Assembly (NCBI GenBank): GCA_016875095.1
Contig: VGSG01000012.1
Span: 1 to 64,000, forward strand
Length of the DNA stretch: 64,000 nucleotides
Reading direction: 5' to 3'
Origin: Deltaproteobacteria bacterium
Lineage (GTDB): Bacteria > Desulfobacterota > Desulfomonilia > Desulfomonilales > Desulfomonilaceae
The notes beneath the pieces were generated by a model. It saw only the letters and a list, made by a program, of their open reading frames with translations, was not told the origin of the DNA and searched no databases. Of the stretch, positions 6,223 through 28,024 are shown piece by piece. A program made the position numbers and the translations under genes. Position 1 is the first letter of the stretch. Each line of letters begins with the position of its first letter.

Positions 6223-6260
6223 ACCCTCTCCCCTGGCGGGAGAGGGGAGGGTGAAGGGGA
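6223..6260. repeat. CTCTCCC/GGGAGAG palindromic intergenic repeat, copy 1
   Basis: CCTCTCCC pairs with GGGAGAGG around a 5-base loop and is followed by a GGGTGAAGGGG tail. The same element in the opposite orientation is at 27179-27259. It lies between convergent genes and could also act as a transcription terminator. Confidence 0.6.
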
Positions 6261-27058: not shown

Positions 27059-27178
27059 AGTATTCCCCTTCTGGGAATTCCGGATCGCACCGGAATTCTG
27101 CCGGAAGTGATGCCCATTTGATTGGCAAGACTATAGAAGGCTGCGTTGAGATCTGCGCCTTTGGCTAAGGCTAGAATC

Positions 27179-27259
27179 CCCCTCTCCCTTCCCTCTCCCG
27201 CCAGGGGAGAGGGTTTTATGACCCCTCCCTTGATGGGAGGGGGAAGGGGGAGGGTGACC
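27179..27259. repeat. CTCTCCC/GGGAGAG palindromic intergenic repeat, copy 2
   Basis: CCCTCTCCC-GCCA-GGGGAGAGGG is the reverse orientation of the element at 6223-6260, followed by a second hairpin CCCTCCC-TTGAT-GGGAGGG. It ends about 110 bases before the selenoprotein start. Confidence 0.6.
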
Positions 27260-27370
27260 TTTCACGCAAATCTCAAAGCCGTTCACTATAATACGGGTAC
27301 TTCTGGGAGGGCGATCTCATTCCGGCGGAACTTTCAAGAATGGGTATAATCGGCAAAAAGGAGGCCGGCC

Positions 27371-28024
27371 GTGTCGTTCATTGAAGAGCTGGACAGCTTG
27401 CGCCGACAGCGGCGGAGCCAGATACCGCCTGACCATCTCGCGGTGATCGATGGAGCGATCGAGGCCCTAACTCGGTCAGGAATCGCCGAACGATGCCTGA
27501 AGGTCGGAGACTTGACCCCCGATTTCGAGCTGCTCAACGCGGGCGGGAATCCCGTGAAGCTCTCGGATCTTCTGGCCCGCGGCCCTGTGGTTCTGAATTT
27601 TTTTCGCGGGGTCTGGTGAGTGTTCTGCAATCTGGAGCTGCGGTCGTTGCAGCTCGAACTACCCCGAATCACGAAACTGGGCGCCGCGCTCGTCGCGATC
27701 TCTCCACAGACTCCGGAGGCTTCTCTCATTACAGCCGAGAAGAATGCGCTAACCTTTGAGATTCTGAGCGACAGGGGAAATGGGGTGGCCGGACAATTCG
27801 GCATCGCGTTCCAATTGCCGGAAGCGCTGCGCGAGGTGTATCGAGGAATCGGTCACCGAATCCCTGAATTGAATGGCGATGAAACCTGGGAGCTTCCTAT
27901 TCCCGCTACTTATGTGATCGACAAAGACCGAACTATTCGCATGGCCTATGTGGAACCGAACCACATGAAGCGAGTCGATCCCGAAGACATCATTGAAGCC
28001 CTATCCAAATGCAAGTCGGGGTGA
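27371..28024 (+). CDS. Peroxiredoxin-like selenoprotein with in-frame UGA (UxxC)
   Basis: An AhpC/TSA-type thioredoxin-fold protein of 217 residues if the TGA at 27617-27619 is read as selenocysteine 83. Before the TGA the frame reads VVLNFFRGVW, and directly after it VFCNLELRSLQ; homologues have W-C-P-F-C-N-L-E-L at this point, so Sec replaces the peroxidatic Cys and Cys86 completes a UxxC pair. The sequence after the TGA stays in frame for 134 residues with family motifs (PATYVIDKDRTIRMAYVEPN) and ends normally. A SECIS-like hairpin follows. The GTG start has AAGGAGG eight bases upstream. It would reduce peroxides using thiol partners. Confidence 0.88.
27635..27655 (+). promoter_or_regulatory. 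Bacterial SECIS-like hairpin of the peroxiredoxin gene
   Basis: A perfect 7-bp stem GAGCTGC/GCAGCTC carries a 7-base loop GGUCGUU, beginning 15 bases after the UGA. In E. coli, SelB binds a short helix at about this distance with exposed G/U in the loop; the GGU here fits. Confidence 0.7.

Follow-up and report, generated by a model that had tools for sequence, protein, structure and literature searches.

A peroxiredoxin-like UxxC selenoprotein gene, with its SECIS-type hairpin, in a bacterium of the Desulfomonile lineage

The question raised by this locus is whether a TGA lying inside an otherwise open AhpC/TSA-like reading frame ends a protein at that point, or is read through with insertion of selenocysteine (Sec). 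The window, meaning here the whole 64,000-nucleotide stretch of DNA that was analysed, comes from an assembly of 4.7 Mb in 202 contigs, rated 100% complete, and the features that bear on the question are the following.

27355–27364, + strand: Shine-Dalgarno sequence AAAAAGGAGG, from direct reading of the sequence; the GTG start begins 6 nt later.
27371–28024, + strand: peroxiredoxin (Prx)-like selenoprotein gene of 217 residues, with Sec at 83 and Cys at 86, assigned from its AhpC-TSA domain, homologues and an AlphaFold2 model.
27617–27619, + strand: in-frame TGA read as selenocysteine, codon 83 (U83), the first residue of UxxC, in a column conserved in relatives.
27626–27628, + strand: TGC, Cys86, the second residue of UxxC, aligned with the Cys that is peroxidatic in classical Prx.
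27635–27655, + strand: bacterial SECIS-type hairpin GAGCUGC-GGUCGUU-GCAGCUC, within the coding sequence and with the geometry of PMC13188914, Fig. 2A.
28022–28024, + strand: final TGA, the true stop.

The interrupted frame and its relatives

The initial annotation described an AhpC/TSA-like frame broken by one TGA alone, and this is indeed what is found: the only interruption between 27371 and 28024 is the TGA at 27617–27619, the frame otherwise being open to 28022–28024. A complete AhpC/TSA domain (PF00578, E=5.6e-28) is recognised in the read-through product, which reads F-F-R-G-V-W-U-V-F-C-N-L-E-L around U83. In the AlphaFold2 model (pLDDT 93.8, pTM 0.91) there are two long helices at the N-terminus, and a helix comprising residues 84–102 starts just past U83; a Foldseek search with this model gave mycobacterial BcpB as the best PDB match, while structures of BCP/PrxQ, AhpE and ResA were also matched.

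All nine matches at class level (42 genomes) have exactly one stop, a TGA; they come from eight genomes, and one of them is a second copy from the genome of the window itself. Among the 395 genomes sampled at phylum level there is one TGA in 27 of 29 matches and none in the other two. Each TGA-bearing homologue was checked individually, and in every case the TGA is the UxxC codon. Cys homologues, known from Ktedonobacter, Hyphomicrobiales and a Flavobacteriales MAG (36–50% identity) and from 53 plasmids of other bacteria (below 60% identity), have TGC or TGT in this column, so that the TGA does stand exactly where homologues have Cys, as had been claimed. The downstream frame, also said at the outset to be conserved, is as conserved after the TGA as before it (81/134 identities to the homologue L030 after, versus 39/75 before), with differences mostly at third codon positions (0.62–0.71 against 0.25–0.30). 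Close relatives having a true stop and no conservation beyond it, which had been named as the finding that would speak against Sec, were not seen, the TGA and the frame both being kept. The second copy (G000 contig C21:13230–13865, L037) is likewise a UxxC Prx-like selenoprotein gene, 55% identical to the window gene; of the two it has the more typical motif, W-U-P-Y-C, and the window gene is the divergent member.

A quite different reading of the same TGA would be that there are two genes here, one with an N-terminal product running to W82 and another that restarts at the GTG at 27620 through stop-start coupling (TGAGTG). The GTG does adjoin the TGA, and a 134-aa ORF is there for a gene caller, but no Shine-Dalgarno sequence lies directly before 27620, the TGA is followed in most relatives by CCN (Pro) and not by a start, and on the evidence of the AlphaFold2 model the split would fall within a single thioredoxin fold, separating a strand from the active-site helix; a split gene is on these grounds disfavoured, and very improbable. 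Standard gene callers would split the single selenoprotein gene in two and lose its active site, and because of this the redox inventory of such anaerobes would be misread.

Sec machinery and the hairpin after the UGA

The genes selA, selB, selC and selD, a search for which had been suggested in the initial annotation, are all present in the genome, so that the absence of selB or selC, which would have counted against Sec, is not the case. The match scores were 594 bits for selA, 391.7 bits for selB (above cut-off, with SelB winged-helix domains), 70.6 bits for a tRNA-Sec with anticodon UCA, and 351.9 bits for selD, which has one in-frame TGA of its own. This selD (L026:1384–2433, G000 contig C7) is a selenoprotein gene too, reading T-A-G-U-A-A-K around its in-frame TGA. 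There is also a second SelB-like GTPase match (G000 contig C73:47–940, L002), which at 184 bits is below the family cut-off, has its N-terminal half alone covered and lies at a contig end; it may represent an incomplete second selB or a different relative of the elongation factors.

The hairpin was originally described as a 7-bp stem with a GGU-containing loop, 15 bases after the TGA, and these details are all borne out: its onset is exactly 15 nt past the TGA, with the stem GAGCTGC at 27635–27641, the loop GGTCGTT at 27642–27648 and the 3' arm GCAGCTC at 27649–27655, making 7 bp plus an optional eighth G.U pair. Scoring with a bacterial SECIS tool had also been proposed. The published bSECIS model (PMC13188914) has a loop of 3–9 nt, an upper stem of 4–16 bp, a G in the first two loop positions, a UGA-to-loop distance of 16–37 nt and an MFE of −7.5 or below; the present hairpin, with a loop of 5 (or 7) nt, a stem of 8 (or 7) bp, G first in the loop, a spacing of 23 (or 22) nt and −11.7 kcal/mol, falls within this geometry throughout. 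A search of Rfam around the gene gave no SECIS family match; its hits were all of miRNA type, due to chance, and fell on a GC-rich palindrome upstream.

Model-type hairpins at −7.5 kcal/mol or better follow 98 of the 2190 TGA triplets of the window (4.5%), and only 14 of the 2190 have one at −11.7 kcal/mol or better; the gene's own terminal TGA at 28022–28024 is without such a hairpin. Dinucleotide shuffles of the short hairpin segment give an unimpressive z of about −1.1, so that by itself the hairpin would be weak evidence. What makes the evidence strong is a codon-aware null together with the comparative data. In this null the protein is kept and synonymous codons are redrawn according to the codon usage of the gene itself, combined with a pooled prior, hairpins being scored if the loop is at least 16 nt past the UGA and has a G within its first two positions. 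The hairpin of the window gene is stronger than this null predicts (p=0.016), and p<0.05 is reached by 19 of 30 TGA genes versus 0 of 16 Cys genes, although the 30 TGA genes are related to one another and these counts are not independent tests. The other 11 TGA genes, eight of which are close relatives in one family (f27), lie above 0.05 mainly because their own codon usage already tends to produce hairpins of this kind. The hairpin is maintained beyond what the protein sequence requires. It occurs in two registers. In the window gene, as in the majority of its family, the sequence is GCUGC-GGUC(A/G/U)UU-GCAGC and 22–23 nt separate the UGA from the loop; in the homologue L036 and in most other lineages a shorter hairpin, built around GAGCU-GNN-AGCUC, places its loop about 20 nt from the UGA.

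Recoding of UGA by other routes occurs in nature, and to that extent one might suppose that the codon is read here as some other amino acid (Cys or Trp), through suppression or a change of code. However, the genome has a complete Sec system, and the gene itself ends in a TGA, the hairpin being found after the internal one only; this reading is rejected as no more probable than the split gene. Least probable of all is a Cys gene turned pseudogene, TGC or TGT having become TGA by nonsense mutation or assembly error, since although the assembly is a draft in 202 contigs and TGA is one base away from a Cys codon, the idea is refuted by conservation of the same TGA across genomes (it recurs in 30 related genes from many genera and in the 55% identical paralogue), besides which there is coding constraint past the TGA and the hairpin is kept beyond the protein's need.

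The case that this is a genuine selenoprotein gene is strong. Given the sel genes, the conserved TGA, the Cys found elsewhere in its place and a SECIS element beyond the protein's need, it is very probable that a Prx-like AhpC/TSA protein of thioredoxin fold is made by decoding of UGA-83 as Sec via SelB and the hairpin, which upholds the original proposal of a UxxC selenoprotein whose UGA the bacterial Sec machinery decodes.

Position of the Sec residue and its proposed chemistry

The proposal that Sec replaces the peroxidatic Cys, on the other hand, has to be given up. In a sequence alignment to solved peroxiredoxins (2ywn), U83 lies opposite the Thr of TxxC and Cys86 opposite the peroxidatic Cys, and because of this Sec corresponds to the first, thioredoxin-type Cys of CxxC, not to the classical peroxidatic one. 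The protein thus combines an AhpC/TSA domain with U83-V-F-C86, that is, UxxC where Prx has TxxU, and U83 is not aligned, as Sec is in a TxxU-type Prx, with the peroxidatic Cys of TxxC; the same distinction between Prx-like UxxC and Prx TxxU proteins is drawn in PMC1088965. Chemically, the residue that attacks may nonetheless be U83, just as in thioredoxins.

In the mechanism that we envisage, SelB with Sec-tRNA-Sec would bind the hairpin just 3' of UGA-83 and insert selenocysteine. From its place at the start of the active-site helix, the selenolate of U83 would then attack a peroxide or disulfide, Cys86 would resolve U83 as a selenenyl-sulfide, and a thioredoxin-type donor would reduce this in turn, chemistry that is suggested by the family, its fold and the presence of UxxC. 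For an anaerobe belonging to the Desulfomonile lineage, the probable function of such a protein would be to detoxify peroxides or disulfides. Recurrent neighbours were sought across 30 loci (1.5 kb flanks) and no widely conserved partner was found, and gene context therefore gives no clue to the substrate.

Known families and Sec/Cys exchange

Prx-like selenoproteins with UxxC (not TxxU) were an already-known family in the Sargasso Sea set of 2005 (PMC1088965); they were reported from Syntrophus, Desulfotalea and Geobacter in 2006 (PMC1794560) and are also in a 2026 catalogue (PMC13188914). With the Prx-like thiol:disulfide oxidoreductase selenoproteins (PF00578, UxxC/UxxU; PMC1088965, PMC1794560, PMC2398784, PMC13188914), which have been reported in deltaproteobacteria, the window protein shares the AhpC/TSA domain, a thioredoxin-like UxxC replacing the TxxU of Prx, and a bacterial in-frame SECIS, but it is longer, with a pair of helices at its N-terminus. 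Judged by domain and motif, the window gene is an addition to this published Prx-like UxxC kind, known since the mid-2000s, and its long form may belong to the same subfamily as the reference protein WP_010940744.1. Among the papers searched, none names Desulfomonile together with a selenoprotein.

Other families differ more clearly. A 'Peroxiredoxin-like family protein' (cd02970) selenoprotein of an Olavius algarvensis symbiont has UxxS (table in PMC13188914), whereas the window gene has UxxC; its NCBI name is also that of most plasmid Cys homologues that have an annotation. Sec-containing Prx (TxxU) has the same AhpC/TSA fold with Sec at the peroxidatic position, while the window protein has Sec three residues earlier and Cys86 there instead. 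SelL proteins have UxxU, and the SelL-related redox protein family (NF040769) is a distant match only, with E=3.6e-10 and 39.8 bits, far under the 120-bit family cut-off.

A tree of 46 proteins calls for six changes between Sec and Cys, of which at least three are forced by well supported branches. The plasmid Cys homologues L071 (Methylobacterium) and L074 (Pantoea) nest among Sec forms (support 90/85); where the SECIS would lie, L071 keeps a −8.2 kcal/mol hairpin (p=0.079) that may be a fossil SECIS. We would suggest, tentatively and with rather more doubt than conviction, that the long-form cd02970-type Prx-like proteins of the phylum may be predominantly UxxC selenoproteins, forming a distinct Sec subfamily not separated in catalogues, with a SECIS in two registers by lineage (loop about 22–23 or about 20 nt after the UGA) and several Sec/Cys exchanges. 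The family constitutes a small natural data set on movement of SECIS elements within coding sequence and on Sec/Cys exchange.

The GC-rich, REP-like palindrome mentioned above lies 5' of the gene at 27174–27260 of the window (CCCTCTCCC...GGGAGAGGG) and may serve as terminator for the acyl-CoA ligase gene that lies upstream; a similar 23-mer recurs at 6238–6260 on the − strand.
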